NCBI RefSeq assembly: GCF_003325355.1
Contig: NZ_CP030850.1
Coordinates: 1,426,001 to 1,490,000, forward strand
Direction of reading: 5' to 3'
Origin: Runella rosea
GTDB lineage: Bacteria; Bacteroidota; Bacteroidia; Cytophagales; Spirosomataceae
Length of the DNA stretch: 64,000 bases
The notes beneath the pieces were generated by a model. It made no database searches and had not been told where the DNA came from. It saw nothing but the letters and a program-made list of their open reading frames with translations. The translations under genes and the position numbers were made by a program. Of this stretch, positions 45,298 to 63,610 are shown piece by piece (the stretch's first letter is position 1; each line of letters begins with the position of its first letter).

Positions 45298-45645
45298 ATG
45301 AGAGGACTTAACCGCGTAACTCTAATTGGAAACCTTGGAAATGTGCCTGAATTTCAGACCTTAGAAGGCGGCGTAAGCGTAGCTAAGTTTTCGCTGGCCA
45401 CCACTGAAATTTTCAAAGACAAAAATGGTCAAAACCACAGTCAAACCGATTGGCACAATATCGTTGTATGGCGTAGCTTGGCAGATTTTGCAGCCAAATA
45501 TCTCCAAAAAGGAAGTTTGGTTTATGTCGAAGGTAAAATTAAAACACGTAATTATGAAGATAAAGACGGCAGCAAAAGATACGTAACCGAGATCATTGTT
45601 GAGCAATTGATTATGCTTGATAAAAAGCCAGGAGAGACGCTATAA
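45298..45645 (+). CDS. ssb: Short single-stranded DNA-binding protein (SSB)
   Basis: The start at ATG 45298 gives MRGLNRVTLIGNLG, the standard SSB N-terminus. The 115-aa OB-fold domain includes DWHNIVVWRSLADFAAKYLQKGSLVYVEGK and YVTEIIVEQLIML. It stops at KKPGETL, so the acidic C-terminal tip used to recruit replication proteins is absent. This marks a specialised or accessory SSB. It lies 83 bp upstream of the tyrosine recombinase gene on the same strand. Because integron-type sites recombine as folded single strands, an SSB in this position may take part; that is inference. Confidence 0.92.
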   Translation: MRGLNRVTLIGNLGNVPEFQTLEGGVSVAKFSLATTEIFKDKNGQNHSQTDWHNIVVWRSLADFAAKYLQKGSLVYVEGKIKTRNYEDKDGSKRYVTEIIVEQLIMLDKKPGETL

Positions 45646-45728: not shown

Positions 45729-47339
45729 ATGATCAAAGCGAGCAAAATACTCCATCGAAACGAAGAGCGCATCAAAGTGGATTTTCCGTACAATCGCGAA
45801 ATCAGTCTTGTACTAAAGCAAATCCCCGATGTACAATGGAGCAAAAGCCACAGTGCGTGGCATATTCCCTACACAAAAAAGGCTTTTGAACTGCTGAAAA
45901 GCCTTTTTCCCGACATTGAAATCATTTCTCTCAAAGAAACACCCACCGCTCAGGCCCCGCTGGCCGCCGAGCCGTCTCCCCTTCCTACCCAGAGCAGCAT
46001 TGTGATTGAGCTTTTGAACAAAACCCTCTTGCTGCGCATGCCCAAATCTGACGCGGATGTTCAATTTGTGTTGAAATTTAAGTATGTACGCTGGGATAAA
46101 GAGCGCCGTACGTGGCTCATTCCGCATACCGCGACCAACCTACACGCGCTGCAAGTCTATTTTGGTGGACGAATATCGCAGTTTATCGAACACAAAACCG
46201 CAATTGAAAACGCTCGGGATGAAACACCCCTGCCAATCGAAGGCGAATTGGTCTTGGTGAGAGTAAACGCCCACAGGTTGCGCGTGATTATTGCCTATAA
46301 CCCCCAATTGGTGAAAGAAATCAAACAGTTACCATTTGCCAAATGGGATGACAAAAACAGATGGTGGAGTGTACCGTTTTCTGACAAAATCGTGCAACAA
46401 ATCAAGGATACGGCCCTGACCCACCGGCTCAAATTTACGTATAACGAAACCCTCTCGCCACTCGCGGTCATTCCCCGAAAGGCAAAAGAGCTCATGGTCA
46501 ACCCACGTCCGTGCCCTACCGATATGATACTAAAAATGAAAGAGTTACGCTACAGCGAAGCTACCATCAAATCCTACGGAGCAGCTTTTGAGGAGTTTAT
46601 CAATCATTTTCCGCTTGATGCCATTGATGAGATAGACGAAAAGAAAATCATTGAATTCTGTCGCTATTTGGTCCTTGATCGCAAGGTGTCTGCTTCTACC
46701 CAAAACACGGCCATCAATGCCATCAAGTTTTATTATGAAAAAGTCTTGGGCGGTAAGCGGCGGTTTTATGCTCTCCAACGGCCTCAACGCGACAAAGCCC
46801 TGCCAGTGGTGCTCAGCAGCGATGAGGTACAGCGGATATTGAATACGGTTCAGAACCTCAAGCACAAAATGATTCTAAGCCTTATTTACGCATCGGGATT
46901 ACGAATCAGTGAAGCGATTCGACTCAAAATCAAAGACATAGACTCCCATCGAATGCAAATACGCATAGAGCAGTCAAAGGGCAAAAAAGACCGTTATACG
47001 CTGCTATCGCCCAAAGCCTTGGAATTGTTACGAAAGTATTACGTACAGTACAAACCCATCGATTATTTGTTTGAGGGGCAAGATACGCCCATGTATTCGA
47101 CGCGTTCCATCCAACAAATTCTGAAAGTAGCTTGCCAAAAAGCAGGCATAAAAAAAAACGTTACGGTACATACGCTGCGACACAGTTTTGCGACTCACCT
47201 CCTAGAAAACGGCACCGATTTGCGCTACATCCAACTCCTGTTGGGGCATGAAAGCAGCAAGACTACTGAAATTTATACCCACCTTACTACCAAAGGGTTT
47301 GACCAAATAAAAAGCCCTTTAGATACCTTGGAAATATAA
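45729..47339 (+). CDS. Tyrosine recombinase with three N-terminal W-repeats, candidate cassette integrase
   Basis: This 536-aa protein ends in a XerC/D-like domain: core-binding region about 262-350, then catalytic R392 (SGLRISE), K417 (SKGKKDR), H481 and R484 (HTLRHSFATH), H507 (LLGHES) and Y516 (TEIYTHL). Between K417 and H481 there is no extra segment, so the insertion typical of integron IntI proteins is absent. Residues 15-228 hold three degenerate copies of a W-x6-W-x2-P motif (W37/W44/P47, W122/W129/P132, W206/W213/P216). They recall HARP-type annealing-helicase repeats, which would suit handling of structured single strands. It directly precedes the hairpin-site cassette array, same orientation. 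Its role as the array integrase is inferred from position. Confidence 0.88.
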   Translation: MIKASKILHRNEERIKVDFPYNREISLVLKQIPDVQWSKSHSAWHIPYTKKAFELLKSLFPDIEIISLKETPTAQAPLAAEPSPLPTQSSIVIELLNKTLLLRMPKSDADVQFVLKFKYVRWDKERRTWLIPHTATNLHALQVYFGGRISQFIEHKTAIENARDETPLPIEGELVLVRVNAHRLRVIIAYNPQLVKEIKQLPFAKWDDKNRWWSVPFSDKIVQQIKDTALTHRLKFTYNETLSPLAVIPRKAKELMVNPRPCPTDMILKMKELRYSEATIKSYGAAFEEFINHFPLDAIDEIDEKKIIEFCRYLVLDRKVSASTQNTAINAIKFYYEKVLGGKRRFYALQRPQRDKALPVVLSSDEVQRILNTVQNLKHKMILSLIYASGLRISEAIRLKIKDIDSHRMQIRIEQSKGKKDRYTLLSPKALELLRKYYVQYKPIDYLFEGQDTPMYSTRSIQQILKVACQKAGIKKNVTVHTLRHSFATHLLENGTDLRYIQLLLGHESSKTTEIYTHLTTKGFDQIKSPLDTLEI

Positions 47340-47411
47340 ATTGAGGATGGTATGTTTGTTATTAACAATCAATCACTTTGTAAAACTACTTTCCATCTCG
47401 CTCAATGCCAA

Positions 47412-47459
47412 TATATACGCAATAGCAAAGAGAAAGTAGCGTATATACAGATGTTGTGC
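47412..47459 (+). other. attI-like primary insertion site
   Basis: TATATACGC (47412-47420) and GCGTATATA (47439-47447) are perfect inverted 9-mers. They end 6 bp before the first cassette boundary G47453|T47454 (GTTGTGC). The arrangement fits paired recombinase sites beside a recombination point. The GTTGTGC half is complementary to the GCACAAC arm at the 3' end of cassette 1, as expected if that cassette was inserted here. Confidence 0.6.
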
Positions 47460-47484
47460 GTCAGCTTACAGAAACAGTTACTAA

Positions 47485-48186
47485 ATGACAGACGAACTGA
47501 AAATAGAAATTGAAAATTTATACTCGACATTTTCGACTTATAATTTTAAATCGACAATCGAGGGATGTCCTTGTTGTGTATCAGACACTGACAAAGAAAA
47601 AATTCATTCAAAACAATTAAGAGAACTTACGGAAGAAGACCTTTCAAGGTATACAGCAAAAGCTATGACAACTTGGGGAGATGAAGACGATTTTCGACAT
47701 TTTCTTCCAAGAATTTTAGAACTATTATCAACGACAAATTTTATTGTTTCGACTTTTATTGTATTGGGAAAACTTGAATATGGACAATGGAGAGAATGGA
47801 AAGAGAATGAACAAGTTGCAATCGAGAAATTTTTAATTGCTTGGTGGGCAGAATTGATAAAAAATAAAAACTCTTTTGACCACGAAGCCTTTATTGAAAT
47901 TTCAAAACTTACTGACAACATTGACGAATTACTTAAACATTGGACAATTGATTTTGACAATTACAGTTTTGCAAATTATGTTGACTTTGTTTATACATAT
48001 TACAACGACTTGAATTCAAAGAGAACAGAATTCAAAGAATTAAGTAAAGAAACATGTGACAAGATACTTAAATGGACAAAAGAAAAATCTAACATTTTAG
48101 AAAAAGGATTTTTCGAGTATGCAGACAAAGACAAAGATTTTGCTGAAAGAATATCTATAACACAATACATATTTGAACGAACTTAA
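47485..48186 (+). CDS. Cassette 1: soluble hypothetical protein
   Basis: The 233-aa protein has no signal or membrane segment and is rich in acidic and aromatic residues. It has a Cys cluster (GCPCC, residues 27-31). DDFRHFLPRILELLS near 68-82 and helical content throughout suggest a compact cytosolic fold; I recognise no named family. The AT-rich codons differ from the chromosome to the left. The cassette spans 47454-48330 with a 31-nt leader before the start codon. Confidence 0.75.
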   Translation: MTDELKIEIENLYSTFSTYNFKSTIEGCPCCVSDTDKEKIHSKQLRELTEEDLSRYTAKAMTTWGDEDDFRHFLPRILELLSTTNFIVSTFIVLGKLEYGQWREWKENEQVAIEKFLIAWWAELIKNKNSFDHEAFIEISKLTDNIDELLKHWTIDFDNYSFANYVDFVYTYYNDLNSKRTEFKELSKETCDKILKWTKEKSNILEKGFFEYADKDKDFAERISITQYIFERT

Positions 48187-48203
48187 ATAACAAAAAGCCG
48201 AAC

Positions 48204-48336
48204 GCACAACATGGGTTTGGCAAAAGTGGGGCTTTTGTGCTAAATTGAACATTTGTACTTTCTATTAGCTTTTGTGCTAAATTTGAACTTTAGTACTTTT
48301 TAATCCCCACCTTCGCCAAGCCCAAAAACGTTATGC
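48204..48336 (+). repeat. attC-like site 1
   Basis: The outer arms are R'' GCACAAC (48204-48210) and R' GTTATGC (48330-48336). The inner stem GGGTTTGGC...GTGGGG pairs with CCCCAC...GCCAAGCCC, with unpaired AAAA opposite CTTC. The boundary is G48330|T48331. The upstream cassette's own start (GTTGTGCGT) is complementary to this R'' over 9 bases. Confidence 0.88.
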
Positions 48337-48370
48337 GGCATTTTGAAAAGACCGACACCAAAAGAATAGA

Positions 48371-49015: not shown

Positions 49016-49023
49016 AAAACGCC

Positions 49024-49155
49024 GCATAACAGCACCTACCCAAAAGGCGGGGTTTTGTGCACAAAAGACAGATTTGTAGTGAACGAAACTTTAGTACTTT
49101 TAATCAACATTTGTGGTGAATCGCCCGCCCTTCGGGTAGCTGCAAAACGTTGGCA
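49024..49155 (+). repeat. attC-like site 2
   Basis: R'' is GCATAAC, extended to GCCGCATAAC from 49021; R' is GTTGGCA (49149-49155). The inner stem CTACCC-AAAA-GGCGGG pairs with CCCGCC-CTTC-GGGTAG. R'' is complementary over 10 bases to cassette 2's own start at 48330. The boundary is G49149|T49150. Confidence 0.88.
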
Positions 49156-49160
49156 GCAAT

Positions 49161-49754: not shown

Positions 49755-49758
49755 TACT

Positions 49759-49895
49759 GCTGCCAACACGCGTTTGGCTGCAATGGGGGTATTAGTGCTA
49801 AACTGAAACCTTTTCGTACTTTAGTACATCGTGCTAGCAATCAAGTATGGTGCTCCTAAATCCCCCACTGCGCCAAGCGCGAGAACGTTATAGGC
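49759..49895 (+). repeat. attC-like site 3
   Basis: R'' GCTGCCAAC matches cassette 3's own start GTTGGCAGC; R' is GTTATAGGC (49887-49895). The inner stem CGCGTTTGGC...TGGGGG pairs with CCCCCA...GCCAAGCGCG. Confidence 0.88.
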
Positions 49896-49920
49896 AATGC
49901 TATCCCGAAACAACAGAAAA

Positions 49921-50685: not shown

Positions 50686-50692
50686 AAGCACT

Positions 50693-50829
50693 GCCTATAA
50701 CAAGGGTTTTGCGTCAGGCGGGCTGAAGTGCAAAACTCAACGGTAGTTTTTCAATTAAACTTTAGTAATAAAACCAGCTTTTGTGCTTCGATTTCCCGCC
50801 CGAACGCAAAGCCCCAAAACGTTAGTACA
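50693..50829 (+). repeat. attC-like site 4
   Basis: R'' GCCTATAAC matches cassette 4's own start GTTATAGGC, with a further TGCT match after one mismatch. R' is GTTAGTACA (50821-50829). The inner stem GGGTTTTGCG...GGCGGG pairs with CCCGCC...CGCAAAGCCC. Confidence 0.88.
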
Positions 50830-50864
50830 CATTATAGAATGAAAAACCATAATAAATAATTAGA

Positions 50865-52007: not shown

Positions 52008-52022
52008 TTGTAAGTAATACCG

Positions 52023-52222
52023 TGTACTAACATGGGTTTGTGGCAAGTGGGGGCTGACGGAAGTAATTGAACATGTGGAATTTTATTGTACTTTTGTTGT
52101 CGGCGGACGTAACCCTTTTGAACTTTTGTAAGTAATTGAACAGCAGTAATTTATATCGGCAGACGTTCCAGCATACGAGTTTCAAAACCCCCACCTGACC
52201 ACAAGCCCTGTACGTTAGCGGC
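52023..52222 (+). repeat. attC-like site 5 (long form)
   Basis: R'' TGTACTAAC matches cassette 5's own start GTTAGTACA; R' is GTTAGCGGC (52214-52222). The inner stem GGGTTTGTGG...GTGGGG pairs with CCCCCAC...CCACAAGCCC. At 200 bp it is longer than most sites because of a larger apical region. Confidence 0.87.
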
Positions 52223-52270
52223 AAGGTGACCGCAGAGACTGAAAAATATGACATTTAACGAAAATCTAAA

Positions 52271-53476
52271 ATGAAAGTGAAAGTGAAATTCGCATTGACG
52301 CTATTTTTAACAACAACTATATTTTGTAAAAATATAGTGGGACAATCTACTAGCAAAACGACACCAAAGACTTCAATAGATAGTTTTATTGAAAGCAAGA
52401 TGAGCGAAACAGGAATAGTTGGCATTGGAGCATCTATCATCGTAGATAAAAAAATAGTTTGGACAAATGGTTACGGCTATGCTGATAAGGAAACCAAAAC
52501 TCCTTTTACCCCTTCGACTATTATGAATATTGCATCCATAAGTAAAACTTTTACAGGTTTCTGTATTATGAAAGCTGTTGAAGAAGGAAAAGTTTCACTT
52601 GACGAGGACATTAATAGTTACTTGCCTTTCAAAGTGATTAATCCAAATTTTCCCAATGGAAAAATAACATTAAGACATTTGGCAACGCATACATCAAGTA
52701 TAATTGACCGTCATCCCATTTATTCTGAAACTTATTATTATGGTGGAAATAAACCAGAACCATTAGGAGATTTCTTAAAAAACTATTTTGTAGAAGGAGG
52801 AAAATATTACTCAAAAGATAATTTTCTTAATGCAAAGCCAGCAACAAATAGAGATTACTCAAATATTGGTGCAGGGTTAGCGGGATATATAGTTGAATTA
52901 AGAACAGGAAAAAAATTAAATGAATACGCAAAAGAACATATTTTCAACCCTTTGAAAATGCAAAATTCAGGTTGGAGTTTGACTGAAATAGACCTAAATA
53001 AACATACTAAACTTTATGAGAAAAAGGGCGACAGTATAGTGCAAGTACAATTATACGAAGGTACAACCTACCCTGACGGTGGTGTTAGAACTTCTGTAAA
53101 TGAACTGTCTAATTTTTTCATAAGTCTACTTAACGAGGGGAAATTCAAGAAAACAAGAATTCTAAAAAAAGAAACAATTCAAGAAATGCTTAGATTTCAA
53201 TATACAGAAACAAATAAACCTGAAAATGTAAAATTAAATAAAGTTAATCAAGGTATTTTCTGGGCTACTAAGTTAGGAGCTACTCGTATTGGACACAATG
53301 GTTCTGACCCGGGTGTTAGAACTTTTATGCTTTCAGATTTGAATAAGGAATATGCAGTAATTGTTTTTTTTAATACTTCATTAGAAGAAAAGTATGAAGG
53401 CGATTTTTTTGACATTTATGAGGAACTCTACAAATACGCAAAAGACTTGAAGGCGAAACAAACAACCAGCCGCTAA
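52271..53476 (+). CDS. Cassette 6: class C beta-lactamase-like serine hydrolase
   Basis: The 401-aa protein has a signal peptide (to about residue 25). The family motifs are SISK (Ser89-x-x-Lys92), Tyr196-Ser-Asn198 (DYSN) and HNGSDPG near the C-terminus in place of KTG. This group covers esterases, D-aminopeptidases and penicillin-binding-like enzymes as well as class C beta-lactamases, so resistance cannot be assumed. Its stop codon TAA forms part of the R'' core of the following site. It is transcribed in the array direction from the 5' leader at 52215. Confidence 0.9.
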   Translation: MKVKVKFALTLFLTTTIFCKNIVGQSTSKTTPKTSIDSFIESKMSETGIVGIGASIIVDKKIVWTNGYGYADKETKTPFTPSTIMNIASISKTFTGFCIMKAVEEGKVSLDEDINSYLPFKVINPNFPNGKITLRHLATHTSSIIDRHPIYSETYYYGGNKPEPLGDFLKNYFVEGGKYYSKDNFLNAKPATNRDYSNIGAGLAGYIVELRTGKKLNEYAKEHIFNPLKMQNSGWSLTEIDLNKHTKLYEKKGDSIVQVQLYEGTTYPDGGVRTSVNELSNFFISLLNEGKFKKTRILKKETIQEMLRFQYTETNKPENVKLNKVNQGIFWATKLGATRIGHNGSDPGVRTFMLSDLNKEYAVIVFFNTSLEEKYEGDFFDIYEELYKYAKDLKAKQTTSR

Positions 53477-53605
53477 CAAGGTATTGCCAAAAGCGGGGCT
53501 GACGGAATTCTAATCAACATTTGTACTAAAACAAACATAAGGAATTCTAATCAACTTCAGTGCTAAAAGTCCCCGCCTTCGGCAATACCCGTACCGTTAC
53601 AAGCC
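53469..53605 (+). repeat. attC-like site 6
   Basis: R'' GCCGCTAAC contains the stop codon of the preceding gene and matches cassette 6's own start GTTAGCGGC. R' is GTTACAAGCC (53596-53605). The inner stem GGTATTGCC-AAAA-GCGGGG pairs with CCCCGC-CTTC-GGCAATACC. Confidence 0.9.
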
Positions 53606-53610
53606 ATTTT

Positions 53611-54240
53611 ATGAGAAACATCCTACTCTTAATTTGCATTTCGACTTTTTCCTGTACAAACAATAACACTTCTACTGCGACAAAGCTCTCACAGTACGAC
53701 TCAATTCTTGTAGCAGAAAACTTCGACACAACAATTACAAACGCTGACAAAAGTTGCCTGTATTACAAAGGCAAACCTCTTTTAGCCTTTGGACAAGATA
53801 TAAAACTGTTTGACACAACATTTTCTTTTAGATACGACCCCAATGGTGCTTATCAGGACTTTTTCAACCAAGACATTACTGACTATTTATCACTTGATGA
53901 CTTTTATAGCACAAAGTTGTCGACAGGTACAATTGACGGTGCATTATATTTTTCTGCTGACAATAAAAAGAGAGTTTTCAAGCTTAAAGCAACTTTTGGA
54001 ATTGAAGGCGACTTGTTAGACACATCAGGAATGGAAATTATGAGCTATTTACACGACAAATATTTTCCTTGCTTACCAGCTGACTTTAAAGGCAAAAAAA
54101 CATTTGAATTGACACATAAATATTTTGTCGAGCAATTTCATTTATATCCATCGCCAGACAGTGCAGATGTAGAACATGGTTTTAAACCACATTGGGCTTT
54201 GGACTATACAATTAGACCGACGAAAAAAAACGGCTTGTAA
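53611..54240 (+). CDS. Cassette 7: lipoprotein of unknown function
   Basis: ATG 53611, 15 bp past the cassette boundary, opens into a lipoprotein signal (STFSC, Cys15). The mature part of about 195 residues contains DYLSLDDFYSTKLSTGTIDG and ends KPHWALDYTIRPTKKNGL. No family recognised; it is probably periplasm-facing or surface-exposed. The stop codon is embedded in the R'' of site 7. An upstream in-frame ATG at 53560 lies inside site 6 and is unlikely to be used. Confidence 0.75.
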   Translation: MRNILLLICISTFSCTNNNTSTATKLSQYDSILVAENFDTTITNADKSCLYYKGKPLLAFGQDIKLFDTTFSFRYDPNGAYQDFFNQDITDYLSLDDFYSTKLSTGTIDGALYFSADNKKRVFKLKATFGIEGDLLDTSGMEIMSYLHDKYFPCLPADFKGKKTFELTHKYFVEQFHLYPSPDSADVEHGFKPHWALDYTIRPTKKNGL

Positions 54241-54439
54241 CAAAAGGTTTGGCGTTATGTCGGCGGACTATAACGCAAACTTCAACTTTGGTACATGTGG
54301 CATCTGTAGTTCCAAGCTTGACGGATATCGCCGAACAACAAAATCTTAACTTCAACTTTTATTTCTTTAATCAACTATCGTAACGGGCTGACGGTTTTTC
54401 AAATTCCGCCACAACGCCAAGCCCCGAACGTTATGTGGC
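54232..54439 (+). repeat. attC-like site 7 (long form)
   Basis: R'' GGCTTGTAAC (containing the previous stop codon) matches cassette 7's own start GTTACAAGCC, plus TTTT after one mismatch. R' is GTTATGTGGC (54430-54439). The inner stem GGTTTGGCGT pairs with ACGCCAAGCC, and GGCGG with CCGCC. Confidence 0.87.
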
Positions 54440-54983: not shown

Positions 54984-55248
54984 GTTTAAAATACGGTTTG
55001 TTGACGTTGTTTATGGTATAGCTATAATCGGAGCAGACTTATTTGTATTTATATTACTTGGACTTTTACTTATGGGTTATGACGATTGTTATGACAGTTC
55101 AAAAGGTGAATACTGGAGTTTAGCAAGTATGAACTCGACCGAAAAAATAATTTACATTTGTTACAACGCTTGGATAATTTTAAACATAATAGCACTTGTT
55201 TATATTGGACGAAAAATATACAGAAAGACAAAGAAAAACGCCACATAA
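54976..55248 (+). CDS. Cassette 8, gene B: small two-helix membrane protein
   Basis: The 90-aa protein has hydrophobic segments at about 8-32 and 58-80 and a basic C-terminus. It overlaps the upstream gene by 8 bp. Its stop codon TAA lies within the R'' core (CACATAAC) of site 8. The pairing of a soluble and a small membrane protein on one cassette suggests they act together, possibly as a toxin/immunity or sensor pair; no motif proves this. Confidence 0.7.
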   Translation: MVKFKIRFVDVVYGIAIIGADLFVFILLGLLLMGYDDCYDSSKGEYWSLASMNSTEKIIYICYNAWIILNIIALVYIGRKIYRKTKKNAT

Positions 55249-55376
55249 CAGCACCTACAAGAAATTGGCGGTTCAGTGGTTAAATGAAACTTTGTGCTTC
55301 GTATCAAGTTCAGTGGTGGCAGACAGTTTTGTGCTTCGAAATCGCCAACTTCTTGTAGCTGCAAACCGTTATGTGA
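55240..55376 (+). repeat. attC-like site 8
   Basis: R'' GCCACATAAC matches cassette 8's own start GTTATGTGGC. R' is GTTATGTGA (55368-55376). The inner stem CTACAAGAA...TTGGCG pairs perfectly with CGCCAA...TTCTTGTAG around single opposed bases. Confidence 0.9.
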
Positions 55377-55397
55377 TATTATAACCCAACAATACGA

Positions 55398-56472: not shown

Positions 56473-56609
56473 ATCACATAACAGCAGTTTGGCAAAATGG
56501 CGGGTTTAGTGCTATATTCAAGTTCAGTTCTTAGATTGAACTTTTGTACAAAACTGAACATTTGTGCTTCGATTTCCGCCACTTCGCCAAGCTGCAAACC
56601 GTTAGCAGC
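56473..56609 (+). repeat. attC-like site 9
   Basis: R'' TCACATAAC matches cassette 9's own start GTTATGTGA. R' is GTTAGCAGC (56601-56609). The inner stem GCAGTTTGGC-AAAA-TGGCGG pairs with CCGCCA-CTTC-GCCAAGCTGC. Confidence 0.9.
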
Positions 56610-56627
56610 AATTTTTCGACAGACACA

Positions 56628-57416
56628 GTGAAACATAAATTATATCAAATAGACGCTTTTACCGACACAATTTTTGGAGGAAATCCTGCTTGTGTGGTGC
56701 CACTTGACAAATGGTTGCCTGACAAAATCTTGTTGAAAATAGCAAAAGAAAACGCAGTTGCTGAAACTGCTTTTTTTGTTGACAAAGGAGAAAAAATTCA
56801 TTTACGATGGTTTACGCCTGAAATTGAAATGGATTTGTGCGGTCACGCTACACTTGCAACAGCTCACAGTTTAGCGACAATTCTTGACTATAAGAAAGAT
56901 AAAATTGTATTTGAAACTTTAAGTGGCGACTTAATTGTCAAAATTGAAAATGGGCACTATAAAATGGACTTCCCATCAAGAATGCCTATTGCCGACATCT
57001 TACCACCGACAATTTCAAAATCTTTGAATATTCAACCGAAAGAAATTTTGAAAGCAAGAGATTATGTTTTGGTGTATGAAAACGAAGCTGAAATCAGAAA
57101 TATTAAAATTGACAGACAATTGCTCGACCAAATAAATCTCGACCCAGGAGGTGTAATTGTAACAGCAGTAGGAAATAACTGCGATTTCGTTTCAAGGTTT
57201 TTTACACCACAAGCATCAATATTAGAAGACCCCGTAACAGGTTCAGCACATTGTTCTCTAATTCCATTTTGGGCTAATAGACTCAATAAAAAAGAACTTT
57301 ATGCTCAACAAGTTTCTGAACGATTAGGGAAATTGTATTGTGAAGACAGAGGAGAACGAGTGATTATTAGTGGACAAGCAAAAACATATTCAATTGGAGA
57401 ATTTTGGACAGAATAA
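56628..57416 (+). CDS. Cassette 10: PhzF-family isomerase/epimerase-like enzyme
   Basis: I choose the GTG start at 56628 (VKHKLYQIDAFTDTIFGGNP), the canonical PhzF N-terminus, 27 bp past the cassette boundary; the frame is open further upstream inside site 9. The 262-aa protein has GNPACVVPL, the catalytic Glu region NAVAETAFFV, LCGHATLATAHSLA, and the second-lobe motif DPVTGSAHCSLIPFWA. PhzF proteins isomerise or epimerise small metabolites. The family is common in bacterial genomes and gives no clear phenotype on its own. Confidence 0.92.
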   Translation: MKHKLYQIDAFTDTIFGGNPACVVPLDKWLPDKILLKIAKENAVAETAFFVDKGEKIHLRWFTPEIEMDLCGHATLATAHSLATILDYKKDKIVFETLSGDLIVKIENGHYKMDFPSRMPIADILPPTISKSLNIQPKEILKARDYVLVYENEAEIRNIKIDRQLLDQINLDPGGVIVTAVGNNCDFVSRFFTPQASILEDPVTGSAHCSLIPFWANRLNKKELYAQQVSERLGKLYCEDRGERVIISGQAKTYSIGEFWTE

Positions 57417-57421
57417 AACAA

Positions 57422-57555
57422 CTGCTAACATGAGTTTGGCAATATGACGGCTGAAATACTACTATGAAACGTTAGTACAAGGTTTAACACTAGGAATTCT
57501 ATTGAACTTTTGTGCTAAAATCCGCCACATCTCAAAGCTAAAAAACGTTAGCAGC
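57422..57555 (+). repeat. attC-like site 10
   Basis: R'' CTGCTAAC matches cassette 10's own start GTTAGCAG over 8 bases. R' is GTTAGCAGC (57547-57555). The inner stem is weaker than in sites 1-9 (AGTTT/AAAGCT plus CGG/CCG). Confidence 0.78.
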
Positions 57556-57599
57556 AACGTTGGTGGTAAGGGTAACAGACGACAATAACATACAAAAAA

Positions 57600-58185: not shown

Positions 58186-58236
58186 CATTTCTTAACTTAA
58201 GTGAACGAGTTATTGTATCTAGCCAATCTACTTTTG
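58186..58236 (+). promoter_or_regulatory. Promoter-operator block, copy 1
   Basis: A 23-nt block (58186-58208) containing the palindrome CTTAACTTAAG is followed, 20 nt later, by the -7 element TACTTTTG and GCATCATC. The same block, spacing and -7 sequence occur at 59022-59072. No consensus -33 box is seen, so the block may bind an activator such as the adjacent Crp-like protein. Confidence 0.6.
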
Positions 58237-58266
58237 CATCATCGTTTAACATCAATTAAAACAGCT

Positions 58267-58884
58267 ATGCAAAAGAAAATTTTACTGTTCGCTTTGGCCT
58301 TAATCATAACAAGCACTTTACAAGTTAAAGCACAAAATGACAAACAAGTCAGCACCTATAAAAGGTGGTTCATTGGAAGTACACTCTTGTTGTTTGGAAA
58401 TTTAGACAAAACAAACAATCCCGAGTATGTACAATTAAATGTTGGATATAGGATAACACCTAAAGATGTTGTTCAATTTAGATTTAAAAGGTCCATTTAT
58501 GCTTGGCCATTAGGTATCCCTTTTGGCCCTTCATTTGATGCGCCTGGACTAAACTATCCAGGACGTGCACGCATACTTGCTCCTCAAATAGGATACCAGC
58601 GGTTTTGGTGGAAAGGAGTCTACACATCCCTTTATGCATTGAATGCTTTTGAAAAATATATGGATGAGAACAATAAAAAGATTGGAAATGGATACACTTT
58701 ATATCTTGACTTCTATTTAGGTTATCAGTTTAAGTTTTTTAAAGACCGCTTCTTTTTTGAACCAGCTATTGGAATTAGTTATTGGCCTGTAAGAACTAAC
58801 GTTCCAGCATCTTTTAAAGCAGTAGAACAAAAATGGCCTAACCACTTTATTCAACCTGGGCTTGATTTTGGATTTAAGTTTTAA
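58267..58884 (+). CDS. Cassette 11, gene B: secreted protein, paralogue 1
   Basis: ATG 58267 opens a signal peptide ending LQVKAQ; an earlier in-frame ATG at 58201 lies in the promoter block. The 205-aa protein has STYKRWFIGSTLLLFGNL, LNVGYRITPKDVVQFRF and HFIQPGLDFGFKF at the end, an eight-strand-like outer-membrane or secreted beta pattern. It is about 40-50% alike by eye to the 59102 product, so the pair is a tandem duplication. Function unknown. Confidence 0.78.
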   Translation: MQKKILLFALALIITSTLQVKAQNDKQVSTYKRWFIGSTLLLFGNLDKTNNPEYVQLNVGYRITPKDVVQFRFKRSIYAWPLGIPFGPSFDAPGLNYPGRARILAPQIGYQRFWWKGVYTSLYALNAFEKYMDENNKKIGNGYTLYLDFYLGYQFKFFKDRFFFEPAIGISYWPVRTNVPASFKAVEQKWPNHFIQPGLDFGFKF

Positions 58885-59101: not shown

Positions 59102-59725
59102 ATGCAAAAGAAAATTTTATTCATTGGTTTTGTCTTAATGATGACAAGTACGCTCCACCTCAAAGCACAATACTCTAAAACAGACAGTACTTACAAACGG
59201 TGGTTCGTTGGTAGCACTTTGTTTTTAGTAGGTAATCTAGCTCCCGTAAACCCTCCCAACTTCGCTCAACTCAATTTAGGATATCGGATTACAGGAAAGG
59301 ATGTAATTTCACTTGAACTAATAACTTGGAAATATGCCTGGCCACTTGGTATTAACCCATTTTTTAACAAATCATACGGCAAGCCAGAAGAGAAATTCCC
59401 TGGTTATATAAGAGATTATGGTATTGCTCTTGCTTATCAAAGGTTTTTTTGGAAAGGCCTTTATGCAGCAGTACACGTAATGCCTATGTGGCAAACATTT
59501 GTGAATGACGACGGTAAAAAGGTGGATAATGGTTTTCATCTATTCAACTCTTATCGGGTTGGCTATCACATTAAACTCTTTAAGGATAGGTTTTTTTTAC
59601 AACCATCACTTGGTATAGCTGGCCGTCCTTATCACACTAAAATGCCTAATGGTTTTAAAGAAAAAGATGACAAGTGGTCAAAATACACGCCTGAACCAGG
59701 GCTGCATTTCGGATATAATTTTTAG
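59102..59725 (+). CDS. Cassette 11, gene C: secreted protein, paralogue 2
   Basis: The 207-aa protein has a signal peptide ending LHLKAQ. STYKRWFVGSTLFLVGNL, LNLGYRITGKDVISLEL, AYQRFFWKGLYAAVHV and a closing GLHFGYNF parallel the 58267 product along its whole length. Likely a small beta-barrel or periplasmic protein. It ends 9 bp before the next start codon, so it is coupled to the DUF6326-like gene. Confidence 0.8.
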   Translation: MQKKILFIGFVLMMTSTLHLKAQYSKTDSTYKRWFVGSTLFLVGNLAPVNPPNFAQLNLGYRITGKDVISLELITWKYAWPLGINPFFNKSYGKPEEKFPGYIRDYGIALAYQRFFWKGLYAAVHVMPMWQTFVNDDGKKVDNGFHLFNSYRVGYHIKLFKDRFFLQPSLGIAGRPYHTKMPNGFKEKDDKWSKYTPEPGLHFGYNF

Positions 59726-60871: not shown

Positions 60872-60990
60872 TTCAACAGACGTTTGTGGCAAGTGGGGGT
60901 TCAGTGCTTCGTATGACAGTTTTTCTTAACTTCGTATGAAACATGGTGGCAAAATCGACACCTTCGCAAAGCCCGAAAACGCTGTATGCC
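60872..60990 (+). repeat. attC-like site 11 (degenerate)
   Basis: The left part TTCAAC...GTTTGTGGC...GTGGGGG and the right part CACCTTCGCAAAGCCC...GCTGTATGCC keep the layout but pair poorly. GTT has become GCT at the boundary. The R'' arm does not match cassette 11's start, consistent with loss of the original arm near the IS91 fragment. Confidence 0.6.
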
Positions 60991-61022
60991 ATTAAAAGAA
61001 TAGCCAAAAATATAAAAATCCG

Positions 61023-61739
61023 ATGCAAATCATTATGTTGAATAAACTTGAGCAATATTATTATGAAGCAAAGGGAAACAAATGGTATGGCTACTTTGCC
61101 ATATTTTGCCGTTTGGCTTTGGCTGTTGCATGGGTAATTTCAGGATTAGTAAAAATTAAAGGAGAACGCTTTGCAGCAGGTTTATCTTCCAATCATCCAT
61201 TAGGACAGTATTTTGATGCTTTACTCAATACTGGATACTATTATACATTTATTGGTGTAGGGCAGGTAATAGTTGCTCTCCTATTACTCATTCCAAGAAC
61301 TGCACTACTCGGTGCCATTAGCAGCTTCCCTATTATACTGAATATTTGTGTACTGACATATTCTGTTCGGTTTGAAGGCACTCGTGCAGCAACATTTATG
61401 TTATTGGCCAATTTATTTTTATTATGTTGGGACTACAACCGCTTAAAATCTATTCTTCCATTCAAACAAGATAAATTGGATGCACACTCTATTAAAGAAA
61501 AACCCTTAAAAAGCAGGTTCCCATTTTTATTTTTTGGAGGGGTTGTGGCAACTCTTGCTTTAGTTGTATTTTTAAACAATATCATATATGACATTCGACC
61601 TGGTAATTCACCAGAGGAATGTACAAATGGTTGTCCTGATAATAGTAATCCAAAGGCTTGTCAAGAATTTTGTGATTGTATTCATAACAAAGGAAAACCT
61701 ATTGGTAAATGTTTAGAAGAGTACGAAAAGGCAAAATAA
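61023..61739 (+). CDS. Cassette 12: DoxX/MauE-like membrane protein with Cys-rich tail
   Basis: The 238-aa protein has four to five membrane segments. CRLALAVAWVISGLVKIKGERFAAGL near 28-53 is the DoxX/MauE entry motif, and GVGQVIVALLLLIPRTALLGA follows. After about residue 195 a periplasmic tail has seven Cys (ECTNGCPDNS, KACQEFCDC, GKCLEE). Such proteins help quinone-linked disulfide or respiratory maturation. The Cys tail could be redox-active or metal-binding; this is inference. Confidence 0.8.
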   Translation: MQIIMLNKLEQYYYEAKGNKWYGYFAIFCRLALAVAWVISGLVKIKGERFAAGLSSNHPLGQYFDALLNTGYYYTFIGVGQVIVALLLLIPRTALLGAISSFPIILNICVLTYSVRFEGTRAATFMLLANLFLLCWDYNRLKSILPFKQDKLDAHSIKEKPLKSRFPFLFFGGVVATLALVVFLNNIIYDIRPGNSPEECTNGCPDNSNPKACQEFCDCIHNKGKPIGKCLEEYEKAK

Positions 61740-61785
61740 AGTGAAAATCAGGAATTTGAAGAAAATACCTGACAAATAAACTGCT

Positions 61786-61983
61786 CCCAACATTTGATTT
61801 TGAGCAAGTTGGGCAGACAGAATAACAATGAGCATTTATAATTCTGTTGGGCTTTTGTTCGGGCCAGACGTATATCGCTGAAGTTTAGTTTTTATCTTTA
61901 ACTTAATATTTTCAATCAGCAGCGGTTCTGGGCAGATGTTTTTCAAAATCCCACCTTTGCCAAGCCCAAAAACCTTATCGGTC
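61786..61983 (+). repeat. attC-like site 12 (degenerate, chimeric)
   Basis: The right arm CCCAC...GCCAAGCCC and boundary CTTATCGGTC resemble other sites, with G changed to C. The left arm CTGCTCCCAAC implies a partner cassette starting GTTGGGAGCA. That is not the start of cassette 12 (GCTGTATGCC), so two cassettes appear fused. Confidence 0.55.
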
Positions 61984-62024
61984 ATTGTAGAGCGACAGTA
62001 CTGAACAATAAAAAGAATAAAATT

Positions 62025-62243
62025 ATGTCATTTCAAGCTTACATAGACAACATTAAAGCCAAGACAGGTAAGACACCTGATGACTTCAAAAAACTTGCCG
62101 AAGAAAAAGGATTTTTGCAAAATGGACAACTTGTAAAAACTGTGAAAGCCACTGAAATTACAAATTGGCTTAAAGAGGAATTTGAATTGGGATATGGACA
62201 CGCAATGGCAGTATATGCAACCTTCAAGGGGAAAACTGAATGA
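62025..62243 (+). CDS. Cassette 13, gene A: DUF4287-type small protein
   Basis: The 72-aa protein begins MSFQAYIDNIKAKTGKTPDDF and continues with LKEEFELGYGHAMAVYATFKG, the DUF4287 pattern (a helical DNA/RNA-related small domain often next to DUF1801/DUF5655 proteins). It overlaps the following gene by ATGA, so the two are coupled. Function unknown. Confidence 0.85.
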   Translation: MSFQAYIDNIKAKTGKTPDDFKKLAEEKGFLQNGQLVKTVKATEITNWLKEEFELGYGHAMAVYATFKGKTE

Positions 62244-62698
62244 TAATAAATACAACCAATCGTAATATTATTATGAACATACAAGAACAAATCAAAAAGT
62301 ATATTGACAGCCAACCTGAACCCAAACGTTCTGAAATAGAAGCGTTGCACCTACTTATACTTCAAGCCTTATCAAATTGCAAACTATGGTTCATAGACGG
62401 AAAAGACGAGAAAGGAAAAATTGTTTCTAATCCTCAAATAGGATATGGTCTTCAAACAATAAAATATGCTGATGGAAAGACCAAAGAGTTTTACCAAATT
62501 GGTATAAGTGCAAACACTACAGGAATTTCAATTTATATTATGGGCATTGAAGACAAAAAGTATTTGCCCGAAACCTATGGAACAACAATAGGTAAGGCAA
62601 ATGTAACGGGCTATTGCGTCAAGTTCACAAGGCTAAAAGACATAAACATTGATATACTTGAAAAGGCAATACGTGATGGTGTTAAGCAAACAAGTTAA
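62240..62698 (+). CDS. Cassette 13, gene B: DUF1801 (YdhG-like) domain protein
   Basis: The 152-aa frame starts at ATG 62240, overlapping the stop of DUF4287; an alternative start is ATG 62273 (MNIQEQIKKYIDSQPEPKR), which is the usual family beginning. SEIEALHLLILQAL and FYQIGISANTTGISIYIMG fit the DUF1801/YdhG fold. The two-gene order DUF4287-DUF1801 is common in Bacteroidota. Function unknown; stress or detoxification roles have been suggested for relatives. Confidence 0.85.
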   Translation: MIINTTNRNIIMNIQEQIKKYIDSQPEPKRSEIEALHLLILQALSNCKLWFIDGKDEKGKIVSNPQIGYGLQTIKYADGKTKEFYQIGISANTTGISIYIMGIEDKKYLPETYGTTIGKANVTGYCVKFTRLKDINIDILEKAIRDGVKQTS

Positions 62699-62716
62699 CT
62701 GACAATATTTAAGCAA

Positions 62717-62827
62717 GCACATAACATCGGTTGGGAAATATATCGGGTTGAGTGCTTTTATGGAATCCCGAAATCAATCAAAATGCTAAAAATCCCCCAC
62801 ATGGCCAAGCCCCAAACCGAAGCGGTC
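62717..62827 (+). repeat. attC-like site 13 (degenerate)
   Basis: R'' GCACATAAC is followed by GGTTGGG...TCGGG; the right side is CCCCCAC...GGCCAAGCCCC with a boundary GAAGCGGTC that seems to have lost a base from GTTAGCGGTC. R'' does not match cassette 13's start. Confidence 0.6.
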
Positions 62828-62879
62828 ATTGTAAAAAGACGGTAACAAGCCACAGAAAACAATAAAAAAATAGAACTAT

Positions 62880-63473
62880 ATGAGAAAAATAATTTCATTT
62901 ATGCACATATCGCTTGACGGCTTTGTTGCAGGACCAAACGGAGAAATGGACTGGATTAAAGCTGATGAAGAAATTTTTGATTATGTCGGTAAGCGGATAA
63001 GCGAAAGCGACACTGCATTGTATGGACGAGTAACTTATGAGATAATGGAAAATTACTGGCCTACCGCAGCAAATAAGCCAACAGCAACCAAGCACGACAT
63101 TGAACATTCAAAATGGTATAGCAAAGTTCACAAAGTTGTTTTATCAAAAACAATGAAAGACACAGGTTTGACTAACACAAAAATGATTAGTGACAACCTT
63201 TCGGATAGCATATATGAAATAAAACAATCCCGTTCCGCATCAGGCGGAAGCGAGAGCAAAGACATCTTGCTTTTTGGTAGCCCTACAGCAACACATTCAC
63301 TTATGCAGCAGAATTTAATTGACGGCTATTGGTTATTTGTTAATCCTATTATTCTTGGACAAGGCATTCCATTGTTTGTAGACATCAAAGACAAAATAAA
63401 ACTAAAATTATTGACTACTCAACCATTTACTTGCGGAGTAACTGAGCTGAATTACACAGTGGAAAGGCAATAA
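62880..63473 (+). CDS. Cassette 14: dihydrofolate-reductase-like (RibD C-terminal) protein
   Basis: The 197-aa protein begins MRKIISFMHISLDGFVAGPNGEMDWI and has DTALYGRVTYEIMENYWP, KVVLSKTM, ILLFGSPTATHSLMQQNLIDGYWLFVNPIILGQGIPLF, the standard RibD_C/YyaP-type reductase layout with an NADPH-binding loop. Small stand-alone members of this family reduce pterins or other small molecules; some confer drug tolerance, but that cannot be read here. Confidence 0.9.
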   Translation: MRKIISFMHISLDGFVAGPNGEMDWIKADEEIFDYVGKRISESDTALYGRVTYEIMENYWPTAANKPTATKHDIEHSKWYSKVHKVVLSKTMKDTGLTNTKMISDNLSDSIYEIKQSRSASGGSESKDILLFGSPTATHSLMQQNLIDGYWLFVNPIILGQGIPLFVDIKDKIKLKLLTTQPFTCGVTELNYTVERQ

Positions 63474-63479
63474 CTATGA

Positions 63480-63610
63480 ACCGCTAGCATGGGGTTTGTT
63501 ACTATGCTGGCAAGTGAATAAATATTCTTGTTTTATTCGTTATGAGCAACGGTTCCAGGCAGACGGAATTCTATTCAGCTTTTAAGAGAACCCACTAATA
63601 TTTCAAGCAT
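63480..63610 (+). repeat. attC-like site 14 (degenerate; right half unclear)
   Basis: R'' ACCGCTAGC pairs with cassette 14's own start over about six bases (AGCGGT). The left arm GGGGTTTG...GCTGGC is recognisable. The right half ends in GAACCCACT...TTTCAAGC without a clear GTT boundary. Confidence 0.45.

Follow-up and report, generated by a model that had tools for sequence, protein, structure and literature searches.

The 64,000-nucleotide stretch of the Runella rosea genome analysed here (the window) very likely contains a distinct kind of chromosomal integron, one which is common in Bacteroidota. Judged from the sequence, a tyrosine recombinase without the insertion of IntI integrases would capture and excise the cassettes downstream of its gene. 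For this purpose, it would recombine hairpin attC-like sites with an attI-like palindrome that lies just behind the integrase stop codon, and the exchange would take place at a conserved GTT or next to it.

The presumed integrase consists of 536 residues, in which Pfam recognised the domains Phage_integrase (residues 361-521, E 5.7e-42) and Phage_int_SAM_4 (residues 266-341). The following features were assigned to the gene and its recombinase core:

45729-47339, forward strand: predicted cassette integrase, a tyrosine recombinase without the IntI insertion, 536 aa (ORF, domain and profile matches)
46524-46751, forward strand: core-binding domain, Phage_int_SAM_4 (Pfam)
46809-47291, forward strand: catalytic domain, K417-H481 spacing of 64 residues (Pfam, alignment)

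The preliminary description of this DNA had proposed a cassette integrase with a complete R-K-H-R-H-Y set, lacking the IntI insertion between K417 and H481. Both features were confirmed. In an alignment of 48 relatives, none of the residues R392, K417, H481, R484, H507 and Y516 varied. The K417-H481 distance amounts to 64 residues, a XerD-like spacing, as compared to 106 in IntI1 of a class 1 integron. Spacings of 140-146 obtained for three relatives (L060, L100 and L114) were rejected, as the search pattern had probably taken the wrong lysine; these sequences carry no insertion. The best curated family for the window integrase was the NCBIfam integron-integrase model TIGR02249 with 233 bits, which is below the cut-off of 265. 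Its alignment comprised model positions 8-177 and 240-315, leaving the insertion region (178-239) unmatched. The model NF040815 (XerA/integron integrase) scored above its own cut-off with 227.7 bits, and the curated XerD model reached 188.8 bits, below its cut-off of 329.6. VchIntI (2a3v) is the nearest solved structure both by sequence and by fold; in the fold search with the whole integrase, the recombinase core dominated the matches. A collection of viral sequences yielded only four relatives, all of them distant, and there is thus little sign of a phage-borne integrase.

The C-terminal end of the integrase family is SPLD-like, a feature common to IntI. Together with the best profile and structure matches, which are to IntI, this end is in agreement with an origin of the family from a true IntI through loss of the insertion instead of an earlier branching. 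Such a loss would be compatible with a distinct integron, and we consider it possible rather than probable, as IntI1 forms a long branch separate from the group in a tree that contains this single IntI, since sampling of plasmid IntI provided only IntI1 copies.

Downstream of the integrase gene, nine consecutive cassettes begin with GTTNNNNNNN and terminate with the reverse complement of this sequence, with a match of 9-10 of 10 bases. The hairpin sites between the cassettes span 118-188 nt and occur either in a form of about 118 nt or in a long form of about 182-188 nt. In the following list of the putative attI and the array, E-values refer to a covariance model and are rough; some of the window sites belonged to its training set:

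47411-47455, forward strand: attI-like site, inverted repeat ATATATACGC...GCGTATATAC-AGAT, then the GTT insertion point at 47453 (conservation)
47453-48329, forward strand: cassette 1, ORF 47485-48186 (start/end complementarity 9/10)
48201-48339, forward strand: attC-like site 1 (stem; E 2.2e-23 on the bottom strand; in training set)
49021-49158, forward strand: attC-like site 2, end of cassette 2 starting at 48330 (linkage 10/10; E 3.7e-17; in training set)
49758-49896, forward strand: attC-like site 3, end of cassette 3 starting at 49149 (linkage 10/10; E 1.3e-16; not in training set)
50692-50830, forward strand: attC-like site 4, end of cassette 4 starting at 49887 (linkage 10/10; E 2.3e-17; not in training set)
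52022-52223, forward strand: attC-like site 5, long form of 182 nt, end of cassette 5 starting at 50821 (linkage 10/10; E 6.5e-5)
53468-53605, forward strand: attC-like site 6, end of cassette 6 starting at 52214 (linkage 9/10; E 3.6e-17; in training set)
54232-54439, forward strand: attC-like site 7, long form of 188 nt, end of cassette 7 starting at 53596 (linkage 10/10; stem; weak partial model match)
55240-55377, forward strand: attC-like site 8, end of cassette 8 starting at 54430 (linkage 10/10; E 1.3e-23; in training set)
56473-56610, forward strand: attC-like site 9, end of cassette 9 starting at 55368 (linkage 10/10; E 1.4e-23; in training set)
56601-57549, forward strand: cassette 10, PhzF-like ORF (92% identical copy in another Runella genome, L133)
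57420-57556, forward strand: attC-like site 10 (E 1.2e-14; not in training set)

Scanned for stems over its entire length of 64 kb, the window yielded 7 sites, all of them within the array, as compared to about 0.3 per 19 kb of shuffled sequence. No Rfam family matched the attC-like sites. Over many arrays, 69% of the cassettes had a start that agreed with the end of the same cassette at no fewer than 6 of the 7 informative bases; when starts and ends were mispaired, this share was 9%. A chain search relying on 9/10 ten-base links alone proved too permissive, with shuffled sequences reaching chains of 7; it was replaced by stem sites, the covariance model and a permutation test of cassette starts and ends.

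Several further observations concern the sites and their surroundings. The words AGCACNAAA and GTTCA recur in the inner part of the attC-like sites, and the long form exceeds the other by about 64 nt, as if by duplication of one unit. Past the clear array, degenerate site-like stretches are present at 60880-63600 of the window, and two paralogous ORFs (58201-58884 and 59102-59725) have flanking repeats in common. Sites of the same type were also detected elsewhere in the Runella rosea genome, on contig C1 at 1181640-1184319, 1393020, 1514034, 1557448, 1610263, 2797862-2799553 and 6636358, and on the small contig C6 at 20498.

The attI-like palindrome ATATATACGC...GCGTATATACAGAT lies shortly after the integrase stop codon in a region kept in three Runella genomes, which agree up to the GTT after the palindrome and diverge immediately beyond it. 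Palindromes of different sequence occupy the same position after the integrase in many other genera. By position and conservation, this element is a candidate attI adjoining the integrase. The BLAST match between cassette 10 and its copy in the other Runella genome begins at cassette base 1, and in other genera sites of 84-92% identity are joined to unrelated cassettes. At one related locus (L177), 4 of 7 sites are followed by identical GTTGAAGAAG where the start specific to a cassette would be expected, which looks like repeated insertion of one element into these sites.

Comparison of 46 sites from many genomes revealed changes on both sides that keep the pairing at 24 of 29 proposed pairs. 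The covariation score of 0.537 decreased to 0.18 for shuffled and 0.10-0.15 for slid alignments; sliding the partner by one base was sufficient to abolish the signal. The sites thus covary as a fixed two-block hairpin in which AAC and GTT are invariant, and doubly linked AAC..GTT pairs collected without a stem filter showed a length peak at 117-120 nt. Extrahelical single bases were present in the left arm of all six canonical class 1 attC controls. In contrast, 85 of 110 new sites aligned without any gap and 8 of 110 showed extra bases in the left arm alone, counts for which an ungapped stem filter was used that favours bulge-free sites. Among 43 sites selected by linkage only, 16 were fully ungapped, and many gaps were located in the variable end or in the right arm. 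Because of this filter and of the lower proportion among linkage-selected sites, the absence of extrahelical bases should be taken as a general tendency with exceptions.

Mismatches within the sites are one-sided, with A in the left arm facing G in the right arm in 174 cases and the reverse in 17. A G.T wobble was found at one pair in 43 of 46 sites. As it corresponds to an A.C mismatch on the other strand, the two strands fold differently; the covariance model scored 121 bits on one strand versus 28 bits on the other, and the bottom strand was predicted to be more stable in 84 of 110 sites. The integrase presumably acts on this folded bottom strand. The polarity of the strand would most likely be read from the asymmetric spacer adjoining the R boxes together with the near-invariant wobble, which exists only in one of the folded strands.

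Around related integrase loci, we found 0.305 sites per kb downstream and 0.007 per kb upstream of the integrase (90 versus 4 sites). Where at least 2 kb of downstream sequence was available, a site was detected at 27 of 36 loci; L050, L076 and L089 belong to the loci without any site downstream of the integrase. In the Runella rosea genome, eight further loci with other recombinases (20 kb each, 160 kb) contained one chance-like site, and the covariance model gave nothing significant at these loci or on a class 1 integron. The preliminary description had suggested surveying co-occurrence of the integrase architecture with hairpin-site arrays and had regarded a consistent absence of such arrays as a possible refutation; homologues of the same architecture were indeed found next to them. 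Among 198 Bacteroidota genomes, sites were present in 61 of the 68 integrase-positive genomes and in 42 of the 130 others (Fisher test, p 1.3e-15, taking genomes as independent although some are related). The sites in these 42 genomes, which have no close integrase, imply that sites outlast or outnumber integrases. A relative encoded on the Chryseobacterium plasmid NZ_CP041688.1 (L155), annotated as tyrosine recombinase/integron integrase, is followed by sites of 118 nt, which indicates that the system also travels on plasmids.

The occurrence of sites in Bacteroidota genomes without a close integrase and of same-type sites scattered elsewhere in the Runella genome would also fit dispersed hairpin elements, such as terminators or MITE-like sequences, with an Xer-type resolvase adjacent by chance. 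This explanation is highly improbable in view of the agreement between the start and the end of the same cassette, which is mostly missing between different cassettes, the position of the sites downstream and not upstream of the integrase, and the covarying two-block structure without a counterpart in Rfam. An array worked by a canonical IntI encoded elsewhere in the genome or on a plasmid, with the local integrase as a bystander, is hardly conceivable either. It is generally common to find attC clusters that have no integrase of their own (CALIN). However, an IntI scoring above the curated cut-off, which the preliminary description had named as a further possible refutation, was found neither in the Runella rosea genome (99.98% complete) nor in 222 genomes of the family. 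Furthermore, most sites lack the extrahelical bases read by IntI, and the local integrase lies directly beside the putative attI and has relatives that accompany arrays throughout the phylum. With a real array downstream and array-linked homologues, the window protein is very probably a cassette integrase of an insertion-less type, as had been proposed.

The N-terminal part of the integrase contains the motifs W37-x6-W44-x2-P47, W122-x6-W129-x2-P132 and W206-x6-W213-x2-P216. Each repeat is predicted to fold as strand-strand-helix-strand-strand-helix (ββαββα; residues 3-59, 91-148 and 173-231; pLDDT mostly 85-95). According to this structural model, the three W-motifs are homologous repeats and not chance motifs:

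45735-45908, forward strand: HARP-like repeat 1, residues 3-60 (predicted fold, repeat profile)
45996-46172, forward strand: HARP-like repeat 2, residues 90-148 (predicted fold, repeat profile)
46245-46424, forward strand: HARP-like repeat 3, residues 173-232, with the Pfam HARP match (Pfam, predicted fold, profile)

The resemblance of these repeats to HARP modules, noted earlier from the motif pattern, is supported by profile comparisons and weakly by fold. Pfam HARP matched residues 185-219 with E 1.2e-4 and 22.0 bits, as compared to a gathering score of 25, and 14 of 48 integrase relatives gave HARP matches at E<0.01 (best 1.5e-7). The suggested profile comparison of the N-terminal repeats led from repeat 3 to the solved HARP domain of SMARCAL1 (4o66) with E 6.5e-6. 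A fold search with the N-terminal part alone returned nothing below E 0.001; its model showed likeness to a part of XPB (probability 0.99, E 0.047) and to SMARCAL1 HARP (0.85, E 0.14). These domains of XPB and SMARCAL1 bind forked or mismatched DNA, and HARP is reportedly kin to mismatch-recognition domains. The Runella protein shares with SMARCAL1 HARP the profile match and the predicted order of strands and helices; it differs by carrying three predicted HARP-like copies fused to a recombinase, without a helicase motor.

The preliminary description had further assumed that the W-repeats take the place of the IntI insertion in reading the folded strand. The HARP homology of the repeats, the likeness of the N-terminal model to XPB and SMARCAL1, and the conserved mismatches of the cassette sites are consistent with such a reader. 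However, array-linked integrases contain three, two, one or no detectable HARP repeats, and those of loci L177, L178, L180 and L182 (278-306 aa) possess neither a detectable repeat nor the insertion. One of them (L178) is accompanied by eleven sites of the same type on the strand opposite to the integrase, which corresponds to the classical divergent layout, and 7 of its 10 cassettes show a start/end match of 9-10 of 10. As these insertion-less integrases without HARP are also linked to arrays, the repeats cannot be an obligatory substitute for the IntI insertion. The assumed replacement was not supported, and we regard it as unlikely. A simpler account is provided by the sites themselves, most of which lack the extrahelical bases read by the IntI insertion. 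In the insertion-less integron proposed here, the repeats may help with folded or single-stranded DNA, probably as accessory modules holding or exposing folded single strands, in a system which can exist without them.

A second candidate accessory factor is encoded beside the integrase gene:

45301-45645, forward strand: short single-stranded-DNA-binding protein (SSB), 114 aa from ATG, OB fold only (PF00436, E 5.4e-37)

This SSB ends with MLDKKPGETL and lacks an acidic tip, whereas another SSB of the genome ends with DDDLPF. Homologous genes adjoin the integrase in Runella, Spirosoma, Arcicella, Arundinibacter and other Cytophagales, located either before or after it. At one Runella locus (L133), SSB and integrase are fused through an apparent deletion. 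Melting of attC hairpins by SSB is known and is counteracted by the integrase (PMC8946536); a dedicated tailless SSB is therefore a plausible helper of the integrase. In the Cytophagales clade it would probably serve, like the repeats, to hold or expose folded single strands.

The same integrase family is found next to the resistance gene tet(X3). The adjacent gene, known as xerD in the literature and also designated TnpF (L152, L153 and L154; Acinetobacter and uncultured plasmids), encodes a protein 68% identical to residues 310-536 of the window integrase, and it branches within the family of the latter in the tree. Unlike the full-length Runella integrase, it is truncated and lies next to ISVsa3, which belongs to the IS91-like/ISCR2-type elements. 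Between this fragment and tet(X3) there is an attI-like palindrome with a GTT behind it, and tet(X3) is followed by the left half of an attC-like site, with 79% identity to window site 1 over 61 nt. The ends of the tet(X3) stretch match partly (7/10 by eye). This arrangement suggests that tet(X3) was formerly a cassette in such an integron and was later moved by an ISCR2-type element; because the two ends match only partly, further steps may have contributed to its history. A study on tet(X14) described no integron nearby (PMC7473080). If the integron works as argued, our results point to a concrete source of the 'xerD-tet(X)' arrangement, the role of which was an open question (PMC7473080).

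IntI integrases possess a specific additional domain around patch III, and IntegronFinder requires its profile (PMC9668308). With this insertion treated as defining for integrons, an insertion-less class is filtered out. Bacteroidota are listed among the integron phyla in reviews (PMC8618304), and IntegronFinder reported integrase-only elements in Bacteroidota as well as a complete integron in Salinibacter (PMC9024848); a survey of attC sites in 11 taxa did not mention Bacteroidota (PMC8352920). A search of the open literature, outside of which most subscription journals and all preprints fall, did not retrieve any account of integrases that lack the insertion and have sites marked by a wobble. 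We conclude that the Runella system represents a distinct, little-recognised integron variant. Attaching sites of this type to such a variant has consequences for a considerable part of the phylum, because attC-like sites were detected in 103 of the 198 sampled genomes: if the system works as argued, about half of the sampled Bacteroidota hold sites which are called integrase-less or are missed by standard searches. We cautiously favour the wider interpretation that it constitutes a second solution for folded single-stranded sites, a major cassette system of Bacteroidota in which G.T wobbles and spacer asymmetry take over strand choice from extrahelical bases and the integrase needs no IntI insertion, and the source of tet(X3)-like cassettes. 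It also provides a natural comparison for studying the purpose of the IntI insertion and of extrahelical bases.

Compared to known systems, the Runella locus shares with IntI integrons (VchIntIA, IntI1) a tyrosine recombinase located by an attI or attI-like site, a cassette array, and complementary cassette starts and ends. Common to both are also imperfect palindromic hairpins with R and L boxes, AAC/GTT R boxes and a junction at GTT. The differences are the missing additional domain, as reflected by the K-H distance, the lack of the two extrahelical bases of canonical attC in most sites, and the orientation of the new-type integrase, which is usually read in the direction of the cassettes and faces the array with its 3' end. 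Moreover, HARP repeats are added in the new type, and one clade has an additional SSB gene. Archaeal XerA and bacterial XerD resemble the Runella integrase in the equal size of the core and the absence of an insertion, in agreement with a score above the cut-off of NF040815. However, Xer recombinases act on dif, whereas the Runella integrase family, which does not reach the XerD cut-off, is tied to attC-like arrays.
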